DNA from: a virus
Direction: 5' to 3' (one strand)
Length of the DNA: 47,659 bases
Virus record (IMG/VR): IMGVR_UViG_3300042914_000603
Coordinates: 1-47,659 of that record
The translations under genes and the position numbers were made by a program. Positions 15,510 to 47,659 of the stretch are shown one piece after another. Within the stretch, counting starts at the first letter, position 1. Every line of letters starts with the position of its first letter. The notes beneath the pieces are model-generated. The model did not search any database. It had not been told where the DNA came from and worked only from the letters and a program-made list of their open reading frames with translations.

Positions 15510-15643
15510 TCCATTACCGGTTTTTCTTTATTAGATTCATTATATAAAAATCTAATTAGTTCCTTACTAATAGTCACTGTTGGATCAAAAGAAATATCCT
15601 TTGAGCAGCTAATTAAAAATAAAAATAATATTAAATACTTCAT
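15506..15643 (-). CDS. Small predicted lipoprotein (45 aa)
   Basis: The ATG at 15643 overlaps the HNH gene's stop (ATGA), and its own stop overlaps the exonuclease start. The N-terminus MKYLILFLFLISCSKD is a lipoprotein signal with a lipobox ending LISC, so the mature protein would be about 33 residues, acylated on Cys13. Small phage lipoproteins act in superinfection exclusion or as outer-membrane spanins. No Pro-rich stretch typical of Rz1 is present, so exclusion seems likelier. That choice is inference. Confidence 0.7.
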   Translation of the reverse strand: MKYLILFLFLISCSKDISFDPTVTISKELIRFLYNESNKEKPVME

Positions 15644-16209
15644 ATAATAAATCTATTTCCCTTTTTTAAATTTTCTTCAGCCCATAATGGACGTAAATTC
15701 TTATAATTAAAACAATGCTTTTGTGCATCTACATTAGTTAAATCATAACTATAACAAGGTATAATATGATCAATATGCCATTTAGACATGTTTTCCCAAC
15801 TCATCATTTCTCCTGTTTTTGAGTTAACATAAAATTGTTTTTCTATATAAAGTCTAAATTCAGGTATAGATATACCTAAGTAATCAACTGTTCTATTTCG
15901 TTTCGTAACGTTTACAGTTTTTAAAGCTTCTCTAATTCTATTAGATAATCTAATTTTAAGATTAAAACCAGCGTCTGTGTTGTATCTTTTTTTATTATAT
16001 ATTACACCAATTCTTATTAGTTCTTTTCTGTTATTTTTGTAATAAGTATTTCTTTTATTTCTTTCTCTTTCATGACTTATATAATAATTCTTTTTTCTTG
16101 AAGAATTATCACAAGTTTTACAATAGTACTGAAATCCATTTTTATTTTTTTTACATTTATGAAATTCTTCTAATGGTTTTTCCATTTTACAAACAGGACA
16201 TTTTTTCAT
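15640..16209 (-). CDS. HNH endonuclease with zinc finger
   Basis: The protein has 189 residues. CPVCKMEKPLEEFHKC and YYCKTCDN near the N-terminus form a zinc site. The C-terminal HNH core is WHIDHIIPCYSYDL (144-157) followed by NYKNLRPLWAEENLKKG. Such enzymes are common free-standing mobile genes in phages. It is inserted in the middle of a tight operon and is very Lys/Asn-rich. A homing role is likely but the cut site is unknown. Confidence 0.85.
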   Translation of the reverse strand: MKKCPVCKMEKPLEEFHKCKKNKNGFQYYCKTCDNSSRKKNYYISHERERNKRNTYYKNNRKELIRIGVIYNKKRYNTDAGFNLKIRLSNRIREALKTVNVTKRNRTVDYLGISIPEFRLYIEKQFYVNSKTGEMMSWENMSKWHIDHIIPCYSYDLTNVDAQKHCFNYKNLRPLWAEENLKKGNRFII

Positions 16210-38309: not shown

Positions 38310-39053
38310 CTACTCTTTTGGCTTATCGTCAATAGATTTTGGTTTAGAAAACATAGTACTTAAACTACCATGAAATGCATGTGAACCAAAATGTGTTAAT
38401 GGTGTTTGTGTATCTGCGTATATTTTACCGCCTATATTTGTCCATAATCTACAGAAAGCAATATCTTCTCCAAGGTAACCATTTTCTGGATCTTGAGCAG
38501 TTTCAAAGAAAGTATACCAACCCTTCTCCATAGTCTCTACCTTATTACCTACTAATTGTTTATTGATAGTTTTTCTCTCAGGATATTTTTCTGCAAGTTT
38601 TTCAAATACTTCTCTTTTAATCATCATGAATCCAGTTGGTCCTGCAGTGATTTCTGTAAAACCATCTTTATCTACTCTAATATTTTCCTTGTCTACAAAA
38701 TGAACTATAAATTGTAATTGATTGTCTTTACCATAACCTTTAACTGGATAAGGTGTTAATGCAAGTGGTACATCTTTATCTATCAATCTATAAATAGCTT
38801 CTGGTTCAAATCCAATATCAGCATCTATAAAAATCATATGTGTACAATCTGAATTTAAAAAATAAGCAACACAATTATTTCTAGCTTGAGTTACTAATGC
38901 CATACCTGATTGCATATGAACAGCTGAAGATACTGCTATAGATTTATGTGGTGTTGATACAAATTTTAATAAACTGTTTGCGTAGTTAGTTGTAACTTGA
39001 TGACCGAAAGCTGGTGTAGCTATAAATAGTTTAACGTGTTTTTTGTCTGGCAT
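38310..39053 (-). CDS. GT-A-type glycosyltransferase
   Basis: The protein has 247 residues. KLFIATPAFGHQV opens a GT-A fold, MIFIDADIGFEPEAI carries the DxD metal/nucleotide-sugar site, and EDIAFCRLWTNIGG is the later acidic motif. It would transfer a sugar to an unknown acceptor. It overlaps the next transferase gene by 23 bases. Acceptor could be virion, DNA or host surface; no evidence selects one. Confidence 0.8.
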   Translation of the reverse strand: MPDKKHVKLFIATPAFGHQVTTNYANSLLKFVSTPHKSIAVSSAVHMQSGMALVTQARNNCVAYFLNSDCTHMIFIDADIGFEPEAIYRLIDKDVPLALTPYPVKGYGKDNQLQFIVHFVDKENIRVDKDGFTEITAGPTGFMMIKREVFEKLAEKYPERKTINKQLVGNKVETMEKGWYTFFETAQDPENGYLGEDIAFCRLWTNIGGKIYADTQTPLTHFGSHAFHGSLSTMFSKPKSIDDKPKE

Positions 39054-39966
39054 AATTTAAAAAATTTCTCCATTCTTGTATTCTTGTATTCCAAGAATAA
39101 TATTTGTTATAGTATTTCACTTGCATCTCTAAGTCTTCTTTATACATATTTTGCTTATAATTGTCTAGTACAGAGTTTAAGGTTTCTGCATATCTCTCAA
39201 TTAAATTTGTAGCGCTAGAATCAAATTCTATCATAGTAGCAAATTCACCACATGTTTCAGGTAAAGCACCATAGTTAGTTGTTACTACATGGCAACCTGC
39301 AGACATTGCTTCTATAACAGCAAGACATGAAGTTTCTTCAAAGATAGATGGATAAGCATAAATATGAGTATCTTCTAAAGATTTTCTTATTTCACCATTA
39401 AAAGTATAACCTTTTAAATTAACATTTTTAGTATTTCTACATAATTCAAATAAAGGTTCAAACTTATCTTTTTCTAATTCTTCAAATTTAGATCCATAAA
39501 TTTTAGTAGATGAATGTATATCTACTATAAAATCATCTCTTGTTTTATTTAATATTTCAATAGCTTTAATTAATATTGCAAGTCCTCTCCAAGGAGTAGA
39601 ACTATATAGTATTTTAATCTTATCAGTTTTTTGTTTTTCAATTGGATCAAATGCATGAGTAGCATTTTTAATAACAAATGATTTATATTCTGGAATCTGA
39701 AATTGTTCTCTAAACTTATTATATTGCCAATTACTTACGTAAATAAAATAATCAATAGAATCAACATATTTACGATCACGCATATATTGAACATTAGGTT
39801 GATCATAACTTAAATGTTGCCAAACTATATTTGTTTTATCTTTTTCAACTAATGATGGGTGACAAATAGAGCCTATTAAATTTATACCATCTAGTGATTC
39901 TTTTGATAGTTGAGCAAGTAACTGTTCTTTTAAAATTTCTGTTCCGCCTTTAGGATTCATATGCAA
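39031..39966 (-). CDS. GT4-like (GT-B) glycosyltransferase
   Basis: The protein has 311 residues. KILYSSTPWRGLAILIKAIE and the C-terminal YAYPSIFEETSCLAVIEAMSAGCHVVTTNYGALPE (in two parts) are the donor-binding region of group 1 transferases, with the E-x7-E pattern. It is short for the family and starts at GGTEI, so the first strand of the GT-B fold may be missing or reduced. It acts in the same operon as the GT-A enzyme and a methyltransferase-like gene. Confidence 0.8.
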   Translation of the reverse strand: MHMNPKGGTEILKEQLLAQLSKESLDGINLIGSICHPSLVEKDKTNIVWQHLSYDQPNVQYMRDRKYVDSIDYFIYVSNWQYNKFREQFQIPEYKSFVIKNATHAFDPIEKQKTDKIKILYSSTPWRGLAILIKAIEILNKTRDDFIVDIHSSTKIYGSKFEELEKDKFEPLFELCRNTKNVNLKGYTFNGEIRKSLEDTHIYAYPSIFEETSCLAVIEAMSAGCHVVTTNYGALPETCGEFATMIEFDSSATNLIERYAETLNSVLDNYKQNMYKEDLEMQVKYYNKYYSWNTRIQEWRNFLNYARQKTR

Positions 39967-40546
39967 ATACTATTTTTCTATTACCTTTTTTAATTTCTTT
40001 GAAACCATTCCATATCAGATGTTCACCTATTTTGTCAATATCATGAGTATCTATATCATCAAATACATATACACATTGTTTAGGTTTTCTATCTAAAAAG
40101 AAGTTTACTTCTTTCATAACAGATTCTGTATCATGAGGTCCATCAAAGTGAACCATTTCATATTGTGTTAATAATTTTTTTTCATGATCATAAACAGGAT
40201 ATCCATCTGCAAACCTTTTAAAAAACTCACTATCTTCTAAATTAATAAAATTAAATTCTGAATATTCTTTTATAATATCTAATAAAGCTTCTTGCTTCAT
40301 TTTATTTGTGTAATCTAATCTTCCACCTAAATCGCTATCTGCTGTTCTGTATATAATATCTCCATAAGGATCTATTCCTAAATGTTTAAGTTTTATACCT
40401 GGATGATATTTTCTATATGCATCTATAATGCATTTAGTTCCCATACCACGGCGAACACCTATTTCAACACTTACACCAATTGGATTTTTTAATAACTTTA
40501 TAGCTTCATCAAAGAATTCATATTCTTTGCTATCTCCACTAATCAT
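39950..40546 (-). CDS. Class I methyltransferase-like protein
   Basis: The protein has 198 residues. GVSVEIGVRRGMGTKCI is a SAM-binding motif I and LKHLGIDPYGD the following acidic loop; VHFDGPHDTESV and YVFDDIDTHD are later motifs. The pattern is that of the small-molecule or sugar O-methyltransferase group (Methyltransf_24-like). It overlaps the GT4 gene. It may modify the sugar that the two transferases attach. Confidence 0.75.
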   Translation of the reverse strand: MISGDSKEYEFFDEAIKLLKNPIGVSVEIGVRRGMGTKCIIDAYRKYHPGIKLKHLGIDPYGDIIYRTADSDLGGRLDYTNKMKQEALLDIIKEYSEFNFINLEDSEFFKRFADGYPVYDHEKKLLTQYEMVHFDGPHDTESVMKEVNFFLDRKPKQCVYVFDDIDTHDIDKIGEHLIWNGFKEIKKGNRKIVFAYES

Positions 40547-40716: not shown

Positions 40717-41054
40717 TATGTCGTTAATGATCCTCTGTTTACTTCCATTATTGATATAGTACCACTTACACTAGTTGTCACACTGCTGTCAAGTAATAGT
40801 GAATCGTTTTCTTGTAATATGATTGGACCATTAGCTAAATTACAAGTTGTTGGTCCTGTAATAGCAGCATAAGCAACAATATAAGTTGTAGCTGCGGATG
40901 AATCATAAACATGAACTCTAACTGTTTTAGAACCTGATTCGTTTGCAATTTGTATATTTTGAATGATTGCTCTTGCCGTTGCATTACAAGTATACACAGT
41001 TGTATTAGCTGTGGTTGTCGGATCGTAGAATGCGTTTCTATAAATATTACTCAT
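40716..41054 (-). CDS. Beta-rich virion protein (112 aa)
   Basis: The product is Thr/Ser/Val-rich with short strands (NTTVYTCNATARAIIQNIQI, then KTVRVHVYDSS, then NDSLLLDSSVTTSVSGTISI). The style fits a decoration or fibre-associated domain. It follows the DAFGRIRVSNP-type protein with a 4-base overlap. Confidence 0.6.
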   Translation of the reverse strand: MSNIYRNAFYDPTTTANTTVYTCNATARAIIQNIQIANESGSKTVRVHVYDSSAATTYIVAYAAITGPTTCNLANGPIILQENDSLLLDSSVTTSVSGTISIMEVNRGSLTT

Positions 41055-42277
41055 GTTAAATCATACCATTTTAATAAACCAGAGACATCACCATTTGCTG
41101 TTCCTGGTCTTACACCTAATGTTAAAGTATCCGATGTTCCACTAATTGTTTGTCCAAGTTGATTTGCAAAAGCTATGAAATCTCCCCCTAATGCAAATGG
41201 AGCAGTTTTACCTCCTAAATATCCACCTGCTATTCTTGTACCTGTTGAAGTTAAATCAACAGTAGTTAAATCATATTCAACATTATCATTAAAAGATGTA
41301 TAACTAAAAGCAGAAGATGGAGTTGCATTAAAAAATAAACCCCATTCAAAATCACTATTAGATATATTTAAAATATCGGCCCCTGCTGGAACTATAACTG
41401 CATAAGGTCTTCCTGACTTAATTCTAATAGTTGCAATATTATAATAAGTATTTACTGTTGATAAATTTACGCCAGCATTAATTTGAGAAGTTCCAATCAT
41501 TTGTTCTAATCCTTGTGGTGAATAACCTCCTTCAGAAATACATGAAGAACATATTTGTTGTAATGTATAAGTTCCTGCAGTTAAGGTTCCAGTTCTTTGA
41601 ATTTCATAACGAATTGGAAGATTAGCTGTTTGCATATAAACAGTTGTTAAGTTATTTGCATTATAGAAAGTATGCGCTGTAATTAATTGACCATTAATAA
41701 CAAATCCAACTCTAACGGATCCAACCCCTAACCATTCAATATCTATAAATAATATATTTGATGTTGCAGCATTTAATGTAAATCCACTTGGCCCAGTTCC
41801 ATTTAATTTATCTCCATTCCAATCTGCTTGATTAATTTCAGTATCAACTGGAGATCCTGATGTGTAGGTACGTCTTACAATTTGATAACCTGTTCCTGTA
41901 TCTTGAAAAAATATTCCATTATTAGCATCAAATAAGCCAACGATTTGTTTAAGATTAGCTGTTTGAGCATTCATTACAAAGGTATTAAATATCAATAATG
42001 ATTTACCAGGTTGATATGACATCACTCTTTTAGATTGTCTTATTGTTTTTGATCCTGATGCTTCTGTGACATTTAAATTAACTGTAGATTTATTAGAAGT
42101 ATAAGTAACTGTTCCACCATTTGCAGTAGATTCATCAAATAAAGAATTCTTTGACATAATACTTTTACTGTCAAAAATTGTAAGTGGATTAGAAACTCTT
42201 ATTCTTCCAAATGCGTCTACATTATTTCCACCAACACTTACGGGTTGTGTAGCAATATTTACATTATCGCAACTCAT
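41051..42277 (-). CDS. Tail/receptor-binding-type structural protein (408 aa)
   Basis: The start at 42277 overlaps the upstream stop as TAATG. DAFGRIRVSNPLTIFDS near residue 22 and SKRVMSYQPGKSLLIFNTFV are words I recall in a protein family found in marine phages and some large viruses. The rest is beta-rich with Asn, Thr and Gly, as in fibre or receptor-contact proteins. Its neighbours are other structural genes. The exact location in the virion is unknown. Confidence 0.7.
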   Translation of the reverse strand: MSCDNVNIATQPVSVGGNNVDAFGRIRVSNPLTIFDSKSIMSKNSLFDESTANGGTVTYTSNKSTVNLNVTEASGSKTIRQSKRVMSYQPGKSLLIFNTFVMNAQTANLKQIVGLFDANNGIFFQDTGTGYQIVRRTYTSGSPVDTEINQADWNGDKLNGTGPSGFTLNAATSNILFIDIEWLGVGSVRVGFVINGQLITAHTFYNANNLTTVYMQTANLPIRYEIQRTGTLTAGTYTLQQICSSCISEGGYSPQGLEQMIGTSQINAGVNLSTVNTYYNIATIRIKSGRPYAVIVPAGADILNISNSDFEWGLFFNATPSSAFSYTSFNDNVEYDLTTVDLTSTGTRIAGGYLGGKTAPFALGGDFIAFANQLGQTISGTSDTLTLGVRPGTANGDVSGLLKWYDLT

Positions 42278-42459
42278 TAGCAGCCATTCTTTCCAGACAT
42301 AAACCAAGTTTGAGCTTCAGCTATATCTTGTGCGTCTTGTGTAAAGGTATTGTTTAATTGTAATACCATCTGCTCTAGTGTTCTAATAATCTGGTCCATC
42401 TGTTGTTGACTATATTGTGGAGTAGCGTTTGCTAATCTGGGTTGATCTAGTTTAGCCAT
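42277..42459 (-). CDS. Small helical virion-region protein (60 aa)
   Basis: The 60-residue product begins MAKLDQPRLANATPQYSQQQ and contains a heptad-like helix (MDQIIRTLEQMVLQLNNTF). It is coupled to both neighbours by single-base or TAATG junctions. I recall similar small proteins next to this tail gene in marine phages. It may be a chaperone or a stem segment for the adjacent tail protein. Confidence 0.65.
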   Translation of the reverse strand: MAKLDQPRLANATPQYSQQQMDQIIRTLEQMVLQLNNTFTQDAQDIAEAQTWFMSGKNGC

Positions 42460-44312
42460 TATCTCTTACCATCCAATTGTCCATCTATACGAAGTGTTCC
42501 AAATCTCCATGTACTATCTATATCTGAACTTACAATCTTAACTGCTGCTTGTCTACCACGAGCTCTAAAATCTACTTTAGTAGTTGTTGAATATACGACT
42601 GTGCTTGATGCAACTGTTTGAACTGATCCTGGATATTGTCTAACTAAAAACTGTACATTAAGTGCACCTTCTTGATTTTTAAAGTCAGGTATATATCTCT
42701 TCATAAATAAATTGTCATCACCATCTACAATATCTATATCTCCAGAAGTAATGAATGCAGTAATAGGATTTGTATCATCATTCACTCCTTTTTCTTGATC
42801 ATATAATGTTGATACACCAGCTGTTAAACCAATAACTGTTGGTTGTGCAAGTGTTGTAGAATTTGGCATATATTTTGTAGCTAATGGATTTGCAAAAATA
42901 TCTTTAGAAGCCCAAGTTGTTCTAGCTAAAGTTCCAACAGTCCATAATCTTTCAAGATAATTGTAAGTTACTACTTTATCAATTTCTGTAGAATTAGCTG
43001 ATGTATAGAACCAATTCACTTCTGAAAAATCTAAATTAACTCCAGCATAAATTACAGAGTGTTCATCTGGATTTAAATCTTGAAATACGTAATCCTGTAC
43101 TGAACATGGTATCTCTTTTACAACCCCGTCAAACAGATAGAAAGCTCCATCTGACATCCAGTAAACAACGTTCTCCGCTTCTACTGCTGAATGTATCCCT
43201 AAAGCTCCACAGTTTGTACCTATTTGTTTAAATGAGAATGTATAAGGAGGTCCTACGAACTGCATAGAATGAGCTGATGTATTAGTTAAGATTAATATAT
43301 CTCCTCTTGTTGGAACTGCTGTTACAATTCTATTACCTGATGATAATCTTTGAAATCCTGCTGTATTCGTTGCATTAGGTGTAAAGTCTGTTAACGATTC
43401 TTGCGATCCAAATAACACGGCCATTGGGTCATAAGTTGAAGTCGTTCCTGGTGTTGTTTGTGTACCAAAGAAAATAACATGTCTATCTCTAGGAGATACC
43501 GTCATATAGTTAGATTGCGTTGGAGCATTAGCAAGTAATGTAGCTCTTGTATTTCTTGCAACTAAAAATGCTGATGTATCAAAATAATAAGTTTTACCAC
43601 CTACGATTGTTGCTAATATATCCTCACCAAAGTTATCTATCTTCCAAATTCTAGGATTAGCTGTAATAACTCCTGATGGTCTTGGCGTGTTCCAAGTAGA
43701 AAAGCCCCAGGCTCCTGCACCCCATCCATTACCAACAGTTGTAATATCGGCACCTATGTTTATTTGAAATGCTGCACTTGATGCTGTTCCTGATGTTGTA
43801 ACTACACCTGGTGTTGCAATAGATGCAACATCAATTGTAAATGTATTAGCTGTTTTAATCTCTTGAATTTCAAATTCTTGAGACATATCAGTATTAGTAA
43901 TGTTTACAACATTGACTCCAGATACTCCTGAAAATGTAACAAAGTCTCCTGCTACTGCTCCATTAGAAGTTGCTGTAACATCTACTATTGTAGTACCTGA
44001 TGTAAAACTAAATACTGCTGGAATAGTTGTTGATAAAGGTGTGATGTCATAAAAATTGTTGTCATAGTAAAGATATAATTTTCTATCAGTTCCAATGGCT
44101 GCTAATGAGTCACCGGCTAAATCTGTATAAGTATGAATATCTCTAGCAACACCAATTAAGTTATTACCAACGGCAGGTTCCCATCCACCTATCTTTTCAG
44201 GAACACCATACCTAAACCTCACATTATCACAATCAACCCAACCGCCTTCTGCGCCGTATTGTGTGTTTTGTTTATCTATTCCTGGTCTAAATTGTAGTTT
44301 ACTTATCGGCAT
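42459..44312 (-). CDS. Large beta-rich tail protein (617 aa)
   Basis: The N-terminus LQFRPGIDKQNTQYGAEGGW, then CDNVRFRYGVPEKIGGWE is a pattern I recall from phage tail proteins of about this size. The body is a string of Thr/Val/Gly-rich strands with repeated W-x-V and Y-F-D edges, which looks like a propeller or stacked sheets. It resembles tail-closure or stabilisation proteins of short-tailed phages by size and position. No enzyme motif. Confidence 0.7.
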   Translation of the reverse strand: MPISKLQFRPGIDKQNTQYGAEGGWVDCDNVRFRYGVPEKIGGWEPAVGNNLIGVARDIHTYTDLAGDSLAAIGTDRKLYLYYDNNFYDITPLSTTIPAVFSFTSGTTIVDVTATSNGAVAGDFVTFSGVSGVNVVNITNTDMSQEFEIQEIKTANTFTIDVASIATPGVVTTSGTASSAAFQINIGADITTVGNGWGAGAWGFSTWNTPRPSGVITANPRIWKIDNFGEDILATIVGGKTYYFDTSAFLVARNTRATLLANAPTQSNYMTVSPRDRHVIFFGTQTTPGTTSTYDPMAVLFGSQESLTDFTPNATNTAGFQRLSSGNRIVTAVPTRGDILILTNTSAHSMQFVGPPYTFSFKQIGTNCGALGIHSAVEAENVVYWMSDGAFYLFDGVVKEIPCSVQDYVFQDLNPDEHSVIYAGVNLDFSEVNWFYTSANSTEIDKVVTYNYLERLWTVGTLARTTWASKDIFANPLATKYMPNSTTLAQPTVIGLTAGVSTLYDQEKGVNDDTNPITAFITSGDIDIVDGDDNLFMKRYIPDFKNQEGALNVQFLVRQYPGSVQTVASSTVVYSTTTKVDFRARGRQAAVKIVSSDIDSTWRFGTLRIDGQLDGKR

Positions 44313-44343: not shown

Positions 44344-45000
44344 TTACACTATTTTAGTGAATGGTGGTAATCCTAATAGAGGTCTTTTATCATATAAATT
44401 AGATTGTGCAAACTGTCCATTTACATGGTTATAATGCAAGAAAACTTGCGCACAAATGTTACCTGTAAATTCTTCTCTCCAATGTTCTAATTCACAACCT
44501 GAATAAACTAACATATCACCAGGTTCTAGATCTACTTTAATGCCTTTTGGAGCATCTGGTTTCATTATATTCTTATATTCATCTATTACATTATTACTTC
44601 CTGTTGGATCTATAAATATTGGCCATGGATCTCCTCCTAAATTTAATGTTGTAGATATCTCACATGAAGGTCTATCTTTATGTCTTTTTAAGATAGATCC
44701 CTTTTCATAAATTCTTGCATAAGAATAGGTAGGTATTAGATTAAGATTAGTTTGTTGTTTCATTATAGGCATAACTTTCATTAATAATGTTTCCATAACA
44801 AAGTCTGCATAATGAGAATATACATTTGGAACTTGTTGATCTTTCCAAGTACCCAACATACCGTTCTCCGCTACTATGTTATTTGAATATAGATAATTAA
44901 CAGCGTCTCTTTTAAGTAGGAAATAATTAAATACAAAGTTAGCAAGATCGTATGGTATTGCTTTTTTAATTACTTGGTATTTATTCTGTTGAAAACTCAT
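44344..45000 (-). CDS. 2OG/Fe(II) oxygenase-like protein, copy 1
   Basis: The protein has 218 residues. YARIYEKGSILKRHKDRPSC carries the HxD pair (His107, Asp109), and LVYSGCELEHWREEF the distal His173 with a basic residue after it. This is the 2-His-1-carboxylate layout of 2-oxoglutarate oxygenases. It hydroxylates an unknown substrate. It is the last of four consecutive oxygenase-like genes in transcription order and overlaps the next by four bases. Confidence 0.8.
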   Translation of the reverse strand: MSFQQNKYQVIKKAIPYDLANFVFNYFLLKRDAVNYLYSNNIVAENGMLGTWKDQQVPNVYSHYADFVMETLLMKVMPIMKQQTNLNLIPTYSYARIYEKGSILKRHKDRPSCEISTTLNLGGDPWPIFIDPTGSNNVIDEYKNIMKPDAPKGIKVDLEPGDMLVYSGCELEHWREEFTGNICAQVFLHYNHVNGQFAQSNLYDKRPLLGLPPFTKIV

Positions 45001-45590
45001 GCTTGCATGCCTGCTTGTAAAAAATTAAATGATACTGATATTCTTATATCATTAGATTCATTTGGATCAACACAGTGATTAAGCCATGATGGAAACATAA
45101 TTAAACGTCCAGCAATTGGTTTATAATGAACTTCTCTCCATAAATAAGATGGAAGTTGTCCCTCTTTTCTTCTTGGATGAGTCATTGCTGCAACTGATTT
45201 AGGATCTTCACATTTTAGATGACCACAATTTTCTGGTGTCTTAACATAGTAAACTCCAGACCATAATGAATTAGGATGCATGTGTGGTCTATTATATCCA
45301 CCTTTGTAATTTATATTTGCCCACATATTACCAAGGAATGGTTCGTTATCTAATAACTCTTCTTTGTAAATATGAAACTGTGCTTTAAATAATAATTCAA
45401 CTAAATCTCTATATTCAGGAAGTGTATGCATATTTGTTTCACTATGCCATCCATTCATATTAGTTTTTTGAACACCTTTATCTTTTTTAGACCATTCAAT
45501 GATATGATGTTCTAAATGTTTATTTAATTGTTCTGATCCAACATCAGCAACATAAATAGGAGTTGCAAAGAATAATTCTCTATTCATCAT
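44997..45590 (-). CDS. 2OG/Fe(II) oxygenase-like protein, copy 2 (TIGR02466-like)
   Basis: The protein has 197 residues. LFFATPIYVADV opens the family, RPHMHPNSLWSGVYYVKTP gives His103/His105, and FPSWLNHCVDP gives His172 with Arg183 in NDIRISVSF. The HxH form in place of HxD is typical of this subgroup of putative 2OG oxygenases as I recall. Low sequence similarity to its neighbours makes recent duplication unlikely. Confidence 0.8.
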   Translation of the reverse strand: MMNRELFFATPIYVADVGSEQLNKHLEHHIIEWSKKDKGVQKTNMNGWHSETNMHTLPEYRDLVELLFKAQFHIYKEELLDNEPFLGNMWANINYKGGYNRPHMHPNSLWSGVYYVKTPENCGHLKCEDPKSVAAMTHPRRKEGQLPSYLWREVHYKPIAGRLIMFPSWLNHCVDPNESNDIRISVSFNFLQAGMQA

Positions 45591-46165
45591 TTAAATGGAG
45601 TTCCTCCAAACCACATAACAAGTGATTTTCTTGTACCTTTAGTTATTGGTATTACACGATGTCTAATAAAAGATGCAAAGAAAATAGCTTGTCCTTGTTT
45701 AGGTCTTGCAATCTTTCCATCTGACATAAGTTCAAGTCCACCACCTTCAAATTCAGATTCATGTGATAATAAACATGTCATAGATATTTTTCTAACCGGT
45801 GGTTCATTTGCACAATTAATATCTGAATCTATATGCCAATCATAAAATCCACCTGCTGGATATTCTGTATATTGAGCAGGTTCTGTTATTTGCATTCCTT
45901 CAAATCCAAAATGATTACCATTCGTTTGTTTCATTACTTTTTCAAGAGTCTTATACATTTCAGGCATTTTATTAAATGGTATCCAACTAATATGTGAAGT
46001 TCTAACCTTTGTATCTACAACACCACCTTGCCCACCACCTACTTGACCGTTCTCTTGTGGTTCAGATCGTCCTGCATTTATAATTAATTGACATTGTTCT
46101 GGTGTAAATAATGGTGAAGTTGTCTCTACAATCAACGACTTCCAACGTGGTTCTGTTATTATCAT
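45587..46165 (-). CDS. 2OG/Fe(II) oxygenase, PKHD type, copy 3
   Basis: The protein has 192 residues. YPAGGFYDWHIDSDI gives His111/Asp113, FFASFIRHRVIPI the distal His169, and GTRKSLVMWFGG the 2OG-binding Arg179. This is the most canonical of the four and matches PKHD-type hydroxylases. Phage homologues are common in marine viruses and their targets are unknown. Confidence 0.85.
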   Translation of the reverse strand: MIITEPRWKSLIVETTSPLFTPEQCQLIINAGRSEPQENGQVGGGQGGVVDTKVRTSHISWIPFNKMPEMYKTLEKVMKQTNGNHFGFEGMQITEPAQYTEYPAGGFYDWHIDSDINCANEPPVRKISMTCLLSHESEFEGGGLELMSDGKIARPKQGQAIFFASFIRHRVIPITKGTRKSLVMWFGGTPFK

Positions 46166-46812
46166 TGTGCCCCTCTGTTAGCTATTGGATCATAAAGAAC
46201 ATCGCAATTAGCTGCGAGTGTTCTTCTTGTATCATTTGTTCCATTGAATGGATAAACACAGTGTCTCATATCATATGGAAAAATATAAAAATCTCTTAAT
46301 TCCATTGGTGGTTGATAATCTACTTTAGCAAATTGACCATTAGCTGCACCTAATATTTGAAGTTTTCCATTTTGTGGAGCTTGTTCAGCTGAATATTCTA
46401 CACCATAAGTATTTGGTAATTTTAAAATCATAACTGAAGATAGACCTGTAAACAAATTACCTTGATGAACATGTACAGGATTATATTCATGAGCTTTCAT
46501 TTCATTTACCCATATTGAATTTAAATGCATTTGATATTTTCTAATATGATTAAACTCTAAATAATGTTTAAACATTTCCATAAACCATTGTTTAACATTT
46601 AATGGTAAATGGTCATGTCTTTTCATTTTAGATTCATCTTCTCCATTATAAAATAAAGAATGTTCATCTTTTATTTTACCAACTAATTGTTTATTAGCAG
46701 GAAATAATTGTTGAAATCTTTGCTCATATATTGAATTAATAGCATGAAATATATCTAAAGGAGTTTCATAACGTAAGATTGATTGACCTAAAAACGTAAA
46801 GTTAAATTTCAT
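46162..46812 (-). CDS. 2OG/Fe(II) oxygenase-like protein, copy 4
   Basis: The protein has 216 residues. NPVHVHQGNLFTGLSSVMIL gives His114/His116 and FPYDMRHCVYPF gives His184, with Arg196/Arg197 after it. The pattern is close to that of copy 2 (HxH, then HCV) but the sequences differ much elsewhere. It is first of the four in transcription order, directly after the nucleotidyltransferase gene. Confidence 0.7.
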   Translation of the reverse strand: MKFNFTFLGQSILRYETPLDIFHAINSIYEQRFQQLFPANKQLVGKIKDEHSLFYNGEDESKMKRHDHLPLNVKQWFMEMFKHYLEFNHIRKYQMHLNSIWVNEMKAHEYNPVHVHQGNLFTGLSSVMILKLPNTYGVEYSAEQAPQNGKLQILGAANGQFAKVDYQPPMELRDFYIFPYDMRHCVYPFNGTNDTRRTLAANCDVLYDPIANRGAQ

Positions 46813-47156
46813 AGTCCCATCTCTTTTCTAATCTTTGTTGCAGATATTTCTTGTATTTCTTTTGGTAATACAATTTCTTCAATCTTGTAACCAACATCTC
46901 TACCATAACATATATTGGTAATGTTAGGCACTTTTATAACATCAAATTTACCTGCGTAATCTTTTAGTTTTTCTTCAATTCTTTTCTTTATATCTTCAAA
47001 TTCAAATGGATTATTATTTGTTTGTGGCATAGTTCTAACCATAATAACAACTTGTCCAGTCTTCTTTAATATCTCTTTAAATAAAGCTAAATGTCCATCA
47101 TGGAATGGTTGCCATCTTCCTAACATTTGTGCTGTTGGTTTAGAGTAGTCTATCAT
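46809..47156 (-). CDS. Small nucleotidyltransferase (NMNAT/cytidylyltransferase-like)
   Basis: The protein has 115 residues. MLGRWQPFHDGHLALF is the HxGH nucleotide-binding motif and ISATKIRKEMG the ISxTxIR motif of the cytidylyltransferase superfamily. It is short and lacks any second domain. It would couple a small phosphate compound to a nucleotide. It overlaps the kinase gene by 17 bases, so kinase and transferase probably act in sequence. Confidence 0.85.
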   Translation of the reverse strand: MIDYSKPTAQMLGRWQPFHDGHLALFKEILKKTGQVVIMVRTMPQTNNNPFEFEDIKKRIEEKLKDYAGKFDVIKVPNITNICYGRDVGYKIEEIVLPKEIQEISATKIRKEMGL

Positions 47157-47529
47157 GTATCTCCTTTATTATGTTATCGTAATTAAAATCTTTTATCTCA
47201 AAGTTTACTTTTTTAGGTTTCTCAAATACTTTATTCGTATCTTCAAATCTTCCTTTATCAATTGTATTCATCCAAATCTTCATATCATAAAAAGATCTAT
47301 AAGATTCAAATGGACAAACAAAGTCTACAACAACATGATTAACTGCAAGATCACACATAGTCATCATACGATTCGCTTGTCGTTTACGACCATTCTCTGT
47401 AAAATCCCAATCTTCAAATAGCTTTCTAATATCATCAGCATTAAAGTGAGGTATCTTTTTACCTTCTATTAATTTTTTAGCAAATGTAGTTTTGCCTGAT
47501 CCTGGTAATCCAAATATTAATATCTTCAT
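47140..47529 (-). CDS. P-loop kinase (APS kinase-like)
   Basis: The protein has 129 residues. GLPGSGKTTFAKKL is the Walker A motif at residues 7-20, FNADDIRKLFEDWDFTENGR and VVDFVCPFESYR resemble adenylylsulfate-kinase-type small-molecule kinases. The substrate is unknown. It precedes the nucleotidyltransferase in one operon. Confidence 0.8.
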   Translation of the reverse strand: MKILIFGLPGSGKTTFAKKLIEGKKIPHFNADDIRKLFEDWDFTENGRKRQANRMMTMCDLAVNHVVVDFVCPFESYRSFYDMKIWMNTIDKGRFEDTNKVFEKPKKVNFEIKDFNYDNIIKEIHDRLL

Positions 47530-47659
47530 TAAAATTTTATATGTCCATACGCATCAACAATGCTTTTAGGCAATTGTGATCTGTAAGGATTATCTTCCTT
47601 TCTTATATCTTCTCTAATAGTATGCATTCTATTTCCAACCACTGTATCGTCGTAACCTA
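47529..47659 (-). CDS. C-terminal fragment of an unknown protein (cut by window edge)
   Basis: An open minus-strand frame enters at the right edge and ends at a TAA that overlaps the kinase ATG (TAATG). The visible 43 residues (GYDDTVVGNRMHTIREDIRK, then PYRSQLPKSIVDAYGHIKF) are soluble and match nothing I recognise. The coupling shows it belongs to the kinase operon. Confidence 0.6.
   Translation of the reverse strand, partial: GYDDTVVGNRMHTIREDIRKEDNPYRSQLPKSIVDAYGHIKF

Follow-up and report, generated by a model that had tools for sequence, protein, structure and literature searches.

The DNA analysed here, called the window throughout, is a linear virus record of 47,659 bases (IMG/VR record IMGVR_UViG_3300042914_000603). 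It resembles the DNA of the Pelagibacter phages HTVC033P and HTVC023P, with 68-74% identity in short stretches only. This makes a host of the SAR11 type likely, although proof is lacking. An earlier note, made from the sequence alone, had drawn attention to a kinase gene and a nucleotidyltransferase gene (KIN and NT hereafter) followed by four 2-oxoglutarate/Fe(II) (2OG-Fe(II)) oxygenase-like genes (oxA to oxD). All six genes lie on the minus strand. From KIN through NT, oxA, oxB, and oxC to oxD, the serial overlaps are 17, 4, 4, 4, and 4 nucleotides. Since neighbouring genes overlap in series, they form a single tightly coupled operon. KIN and NT do come ahead of the oxygenase genes, as the note had it, but one gene before them had been missed. 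The edge of the window cuts through a seventh operon gene, which lies upstream of KIN and encodes a sulfotransferase.

The final 131 bases of the window (47529..47659, minus strand) hold the last 43 codons of this gene. They encode GYDDTVVGNRMHTIREDIRKEDNPYRSQLPKSIVDAYGHIKF, followed by a stop codon that overlaps with the start codon of KIN as TAATG. The translated piece is colinear with the C-terminus of a related gene, L001:8601-9419, whose product matches Sulfotransfer_3 (9.4e-12) and Sulfotransfer_1 (1.6e-10) over the Pfam cut-offs. The full-length gene encodes about 250-276 residues in relatives, and the sulfotransferases of L001, L028, L033, and L134 exceed the Pfam cut-offs. In most relatives, it is located directly upstream of KIN, mostly with an overlap of 1 or 4 nucleotides. 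The motifs for binding 3′-phosphoadenosine 5′-phosphosulfate (PAPS) were counted in related loci, as only the C-terminus of the gene lies inside the window. The PRSGNT-type 5′ loop is kept in 51 of 56 distinct phage sulfotransferases, and 48 of the 56 have the 3′ motif R..(L/V)..S. At two loci where the usual sulfotransferase gene is missing, an unrelated gene for 228 amino acids precedes KIN (L027:8945-9631 and L075:5171-5857). Its product has a P-loop-like start (HTSFCGSTYLA) and no Pfam match, and could be an undescribed type of sulfotransferase.

The KIN and NT proteins and their bacterial relatives

KIN (47140..47529, minus strand) encodes a small P-loop kinase of 129 residues with the P-loop GLPGSGKT. 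It matches the Pfam family APS_kinase (PF01583; APS, adenosine 5′-phosphosulfate) with 24.4 bits against a cut-off of 21.1, and the NCBIfam apsK model with 22.5 bits, below its cut-off of 138.7. When a profile of eight relatives was compared with the PDB, the best matches were the APS kinases 2yvu, 3cr7, and 1d6j, apart from two repeat-rich multi-domain entries that ranked ahead of them by the P-loop only. As judged from its sequence, KIN is APS-kinase-like. KIN and NT correspond to the N-terminal and C-terminal halves of PHROG 10255, respectively, and are fused in phages of Stenotrophomonas, Xanthomonas, and Clavibacter as well as in some alphaproteobacteria. The fused bacterial homologues match APS_kinase at 5e-14, and one of these alphaproteobacteria has the fused gene 3 kb from a Sulfotransfer_3 gene. 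In Clavibacter phage 33 and Xanthomonas phage AhaSv (L149 and L150), an annotated cysteine dioxygenase gene was seen a few genes upstream of the fused gene.

NT (46809..47156, minus strand) encodes a minimal HIGH-type nucleotidyltransferase of 115 residues (PF01467, 1.5e-7), which is proposed below to be an ATP sulfurylase. Its conserved motifs are GRWQPFHDGH, NPF, YGR(D/G)VGY, and ISATKIR. By sequence, NT resembles nicotinamide mononucleotide (NMN) adenylyltransferases (NMNATs), and its closest solved relative is the archaeal NMNAT MJ0541. It shares with the archaeal/NadM-type NMNATs the HIGH-type core GR(W/F)QPFH.GH and the C-terminal IS(A/G)T..R. In contrast to them, it is about 55 residues shorter, has the conserved YGR(D/G)VGY, has sulfur-gene neighbours, and scores far below the cut-offs of the NCBIfam NMNAT equivalogs (29.8 against 181.2 bits for TIGR01527 and 35.4 against 127 for NF002243). 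NT was also compared with the known ATP sulfurylases, and its sequence gave no match that would make it homologous to Sat or CysD. There was no match to PF01747, the Sat-type ATP sulfurylase family, and a profile comparison with Sat gave 48% probability in an implausible register. The GRD of YGRDVGY was considered as the GRDHAG motif of ATP sulfurylases and dropped, since no alignment supports it. Some phage copies, and those SAR11 copies that were read, have G in place of the D. In a tree of NT, the viral copies, the SAR11 copies, and those of the mostly Sat-less family described next form separate, poorly resolved groups, and no recent host-to-phage transfer is visible.

In one marine alphaproteobacterial family, it was found that KIN-NT stand just after the PAPS/APS reductase gene in five genomes. 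The three sulfate-assimilation operons that were read (L157, L167, and L317) have the order CbiX-CysG-CysI-CysH-DUF2061-KIN-NT, with a CysG-type methylase, CysI as the sulfite reductase, and NT last, and their CysH has the CC...CxxC motif of APS-reducing forms. In two more genomes, CysH is followed on the same strand by NT, at a distance of about 0.9 kb. In summary, CysH is present in all six genomes of the family and NT is beside it in five. CysD was found in none of the six, apart from one weak match below the cut-off in a 532-residue frame of one genome, and Sat was found in one, at a separate polysaccharide-type locus. With no CysD found, and Sat in a single genome, the family needs APS from elsewhere, and NT is the obvious candidate for its source. 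The single canonical Sat gene (L297/L303, contig 19 of G002) adjoins pyruvate-kinase-like and glycosyl/glycerophosphotransferase-like genes, outside the cys operon.

Relatives of NT at about 70% identity also occur in many SAR11 genomes (L153-L232, G003-G008, and G203), and KIN lies within one to three genes of NT in 69 of 80 loci. Sat was not found in the six SAR11 genomes tested for it. AprA is present in five of seven SAR11 genomes, and several have sulfotransferases. According to the literature, cysDNCHIJ and sat are missing from SAR11, and the role proposed for AprBA is the detoxification of sulfite (PMC5069961). One may speculate that KIN-NT could supply PAPS in SAR11, or that NT in reverse could complete an AprBA route of sulfite oxidation. 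A phylum-wide sample for further contexts of NT yielded zero new genomes.

Joint gain and loss of the sulfotransferase, KIN, and NT genes

Viral contigs were fetched by three separate queries, and genes were labelled in the 4.5 kb that precede the structural gene. This gene, which follows the oxygenase genes in the window (42459..44312, minus strand; PHROG 3287, 2.6e-81), encodes a virion structural protein and served as the neutral anchor of the sampling. The contigs fetched by it comprise 7 with sulfotransferase, KIN, and NT, 14 with none of them, and no mixed case. Those fetched by oxD comprise 7 with the whole trio, 8 with none, and 1 with the sulfotransferase only. Pooling these samples, neither of which was chosen for the trio, gives 14 contigs with all three genes, 22 with none, and 1 with the sulfotransferase only (Fisher p 2.5e-9, a nominal value that ranks the effect only, as the contigs share ancestry). 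For nine contigs that lack KIN-NT, whole-record Pfam searches revealed no sulfotransferase. NT as the query fetched 45 contigs, and a sulfotransferase gene lies in the labelled span of 39 of them and slightly further upstream in one more (L033). Since phage sulfotransferases are diverse, their repeated association with KIN-NT is all the more telling.

The oxygenase genes behave differently. All of oxA to oxD are retained in the 8 oxD-fetched contigs without the trio, and KIN-NT accompany quite different sets of oxygenases in many contigs. Thus, the idea that the six genes travel together in other contigs did not hold. The trio is gained and lost jointly and oxA to oxD persist alone, so KIN and NT belong with sulfation and not with the oxygenases. 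Since KIN-NT are tied to a sulfotransferase, the activated product is most likely PAPS, rather than a nucleotide-sugar or a base, as far as gene context and sequence can tell.

The four oxygenases and the neighbouring genes

The positions given earlier for the four oxygenase genes proved correct, and by family profile or fold, their products fall in the 2OG-Fe(II) oxygenase superfamily. This was found by Pfam for oxA (46162..46812; PF13759, 7.1e-8), oxB (45587..46165; PF13640, 1.7e-14), and oxC (44997..45590; PF13759, 4.8e-30), and by an AlphaFold2 model and Foldseek for oxD (44344..45000). The candidate metal triad noted in each of them (HxD or HxH, then His) is invariant among aligned relatives. 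The residues H114/H116/H184 and R196 of oxA are conserved in all 84 aligned rows, H111/D113/H169 and R179 of oxB in all 113, H103/H105/H172 of oxC in all 125, and H107/D109/H173 of oxD in all 121. Thus, oxB, with its canonical HxD...H...R, and oxD have an invariant HxD...H, while oxA and oxC have an invariant HxH...H. Since HxH...H replaces HxD/E...H in oxA and oxC, the third metal ligand of these two is uncertain. It was also true that the four are very different from each other. The only BLAST match between them is a marginal one of oxA to oxC (27% over 111 residues, E 7e-6), and all other pairs are at E 0.028 or worse.

oxD matches no Pfam family even with E up to 1 allowed, and falls in PHROG 2954 (5.7e-50), which is labelled 'ferrochelatase'. 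No ferrochelatase profile supports this identity, and the fold matches are to 2OG hydroxylases. The AlphaFold2 model of oxD is confident (pLDDT 91), and its best Foldseek matches are the Pseudomonas putida prolyl-4-hydroxylase, Dictyostelium PHD, and human PHD2. The matches of the modelled fold and the invariant HxD...H indicate a 2OG-type oxygenase. The label is very probably wrong, and oxD appears to be a 2OG oxygenase of the prolyl-hydroxylase type. Homologues of oxD were found in 154 phage records, including many cyanophage and pelagiphage genes, and the 'ferrochelatase' label has been used to infer a link to iron and heme (PMC9599517). Relabelling these genes as oxygenase genes takes the supposed heme link out of many phage annotations.

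Pelagiphages of the HTVC023P type (PMC9599517) likewise have several unrelated oxygenase genes and a 'ferrochelatase' gene near structural genes, and in HTVC023P itself, oxygenase genes adjoin the oxD homologue. In contrast to the window, no set of KIN, NT, and sulfotransferase is annotated in the HTVC023P stretch compared. Short unannotated genes with HxD...H-like motifs lie between KIN and NT or nearby in a related cassette (L028:7786-8259 and L028:6114-6650), and many similar ORFs for 160-200 residues were seen in others. This suggests that related cassettes exchange many further oxygenases.

The cassette has tail-fibre-like genes on one side and genes of virion structural proteins on the other. 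Upstream of the sulfotransferase gene in L001 are two genes for repeat proteins of about 600 residues with weak Kelch similarity, which I read as tail fibres from their sequence. In the window, the structural gene used as the anchor is followed on the same strand by a second one (41051..42307; PHROG 1645, 7.9e-97). Just downstream are the genes of a methyltransferase (39950..40546; PF13578, 2.1e-8), possibly a further decorating enzyme, and of a group 1 glycosyltransferase (39031..39966; PF00534, 4.1e-15), and then that of a possible family-2 glycosyltransferase (38310..39053; PF00535, a weak match with E 0.12, below the cut-off). All of them are on the minus strand. In L008 and L051, homologues of the window gene at 15640-16209, whose product looks HNH-endonuclease-like by eye, are apparently inserted right after the structural gene.

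Proposed sulfation, its candidate target, and the alternatives

The best explanation of the whole is that the operon combines two separable modules beside tail genes, a PAPS-making sulfation module (sulfotransferase-KIN-NT) and four unrelated 2OG-Fe(II) hydroxylases. I give it a probability of roughly 0.6. NT would convert sulfate and ATP into APS, KIN would phosphorylate APS to PAPS, and the sulfotransferase would transfer the sulfuryl group from PAPS to a hydroxyl group of the target. Like NMNAT, NT would pass the adenylyl group of ATP to an oxyanion, which would be sulfate instead of a phosphate monoester. oxA to oxD would each hydroxylate a different site independently. This agrees with the earlier idea that the kinase and the nucleotidyltransferase make an activated donor beside oxygenases with probably different targets. 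Virion or tail proteins, or their glycans, are the favoured targets, because the cassette sits in the structural cluster, together with genes for glycosyltransferases and a methyltransferase.

Several observations weigh against this explanation. In both sequence and fold, NT resembles NMN adenylyltransferase more closely than it does any ATP sulfurylase. Its AlphaFold2 model is mediocre (pLDDT 70, with segment 80-96 below 50) and too weak for judging the active site, and Foldseek gave just partial NMNAT/PPAT-like matches above E 0.001. The main weakness is that the genomes of the alphaproteobacterial family are incomplete metagenome-assembled genomes and single-cell assemblies of 0.6-1.1 Mb. 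The KIN-NT loci of SAR11 have betaine/CoA-type neighbours and no adjacent sulfur gene. Moreover, 5 of the 45 KIN-NT contigs have no Pfam sulfotransferase in the whole record, and the same holds for DLP_6, Clavibacter 33, and AhaSv, three complete isolate phages in which KIN and NT are fused. The virion as the target is proposed from gene position only.

It is possible, although unlikely, that the PAPS module is real and the sulfotransferase acts on a glycan or lipid of the host surface, for example to block other phages. The glycosyltransferases and the methyltransferase share the operon, sulfotransferases use many substrates, and virion modification is itself a prediction here. However, the cassette lies within the late structural cluster, after the tail-fibre-like repeat genes and before the virion genes, and late expression would be poor timing for remodelling the host. 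A still less probable alternative is the salvage of nicotinamide adenine dinucleotide (NAD). KIN would then phosphorylate nicotinamide riboside and NT would adenylylate NMN, so that NAD+ is restored in the course of infection or to counter defences that deplete it. Phages carrying NAD salvage genes exist, and both the closest solved relative of NT and its best, sub-cut-off NCBIfam matches are NMNATs. On the other hand, the KIN profile retrieves APS kinases, and the best-scoring models for the fused homologues are those of APS kinase and bifunctional Sat/APS kinase. NT has 115 residues against about 170 in archaeal NMNATs and aligns well over the first 60-75 residues only. NAD salvage would also leave the tie to the sulfotransferase and the place in the cys operon unexplained.

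The least probable reading is the single pathway that the earlier note had suggested, in which the kinase and the nucleotidyltransferase feed a stepwise oxidation of one modified metabolite, sugar, or base, as in DNA hypermodification. Every gene is in one operon, and oxB has a faint match to Tet_JBP (E 0.022, below the cut-off). However, a route from KIN to the oxygenases was rejected because the modules separate in relatives, in both directions as described above, and KIN-NT are tied to the sulfotransferase. oxD resembles protein prolyl hydroxylases, and the genes lie among virion genes and not among replication genes.

Sulfation by the trio would follow the same predicted chemistry, from sulfate through APS and PAPS to a sulfated target, as the human PAPSS-type bifunctional PAPS synthase with a sulfotransferase. 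In PAPSS too, the kinase precedes the nucleotidyltransferase, and some KIN-NT homologues are fused. In contrast, the sequence of NT shows no homology to Sat and is closest to NMNAT, KIN is diverged and only about 129 residues long, and the genes are phage-borne. Cyanophages and OM43 phages have Sulfotransfer_3-type proteins whose function 'remains unclear' (PMC10580990), and those of S-SKS1 and S-SRM01 share 26-27% identity with the sulfotransferase of the module. There is no KIN or NT match in those isolates, while here the sulfotransferase is coupled to a putative PAPS supply. Pelagiphage oxygenase clusters, phage sulfotransferases, and phage cysC have been reported separately (PMC9599517, PMC10580990, PMC8190135). 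In the open-licence literature, no report was found that couples a PAPS-making pair with a sulfotransferase in a phage, or that describes an NMNAT-like or other non-orthologous ATP sulfurylase.

With a PAPS supply coupled to the sulfotransferase, sulfation driven by phages would become a concrete and testable idea. It would also bear on the PAPS source of SAR11 phages, whose hosts reportedly lack cysDNCHIJ and sat. I tentatively suggest, with rather less confidence than for the explanation above, that NT represents a third class of ATP sulfurylase, derived from NMNAT. With KIN, it would be a minimal PAPS synthase that serves sulfate assimilation in the marine alphaproteobacterial family described above, occurs in SAR11, which is considered to lack sulfate activation, and was acquired by SAR11-type phages for the sulfation of their virion proteins. 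The SAR11 enzyme could also run backwards, which would complete the AprBA route, for which no sulfurylase is known. If NT is an ATP sulfurylase, annotation of sulfate assimilation by Sat or CysDN alone misses genomes, and a bacterial group that ranks among the most abundant has a key step of sulfur metabolism that escaped notice.

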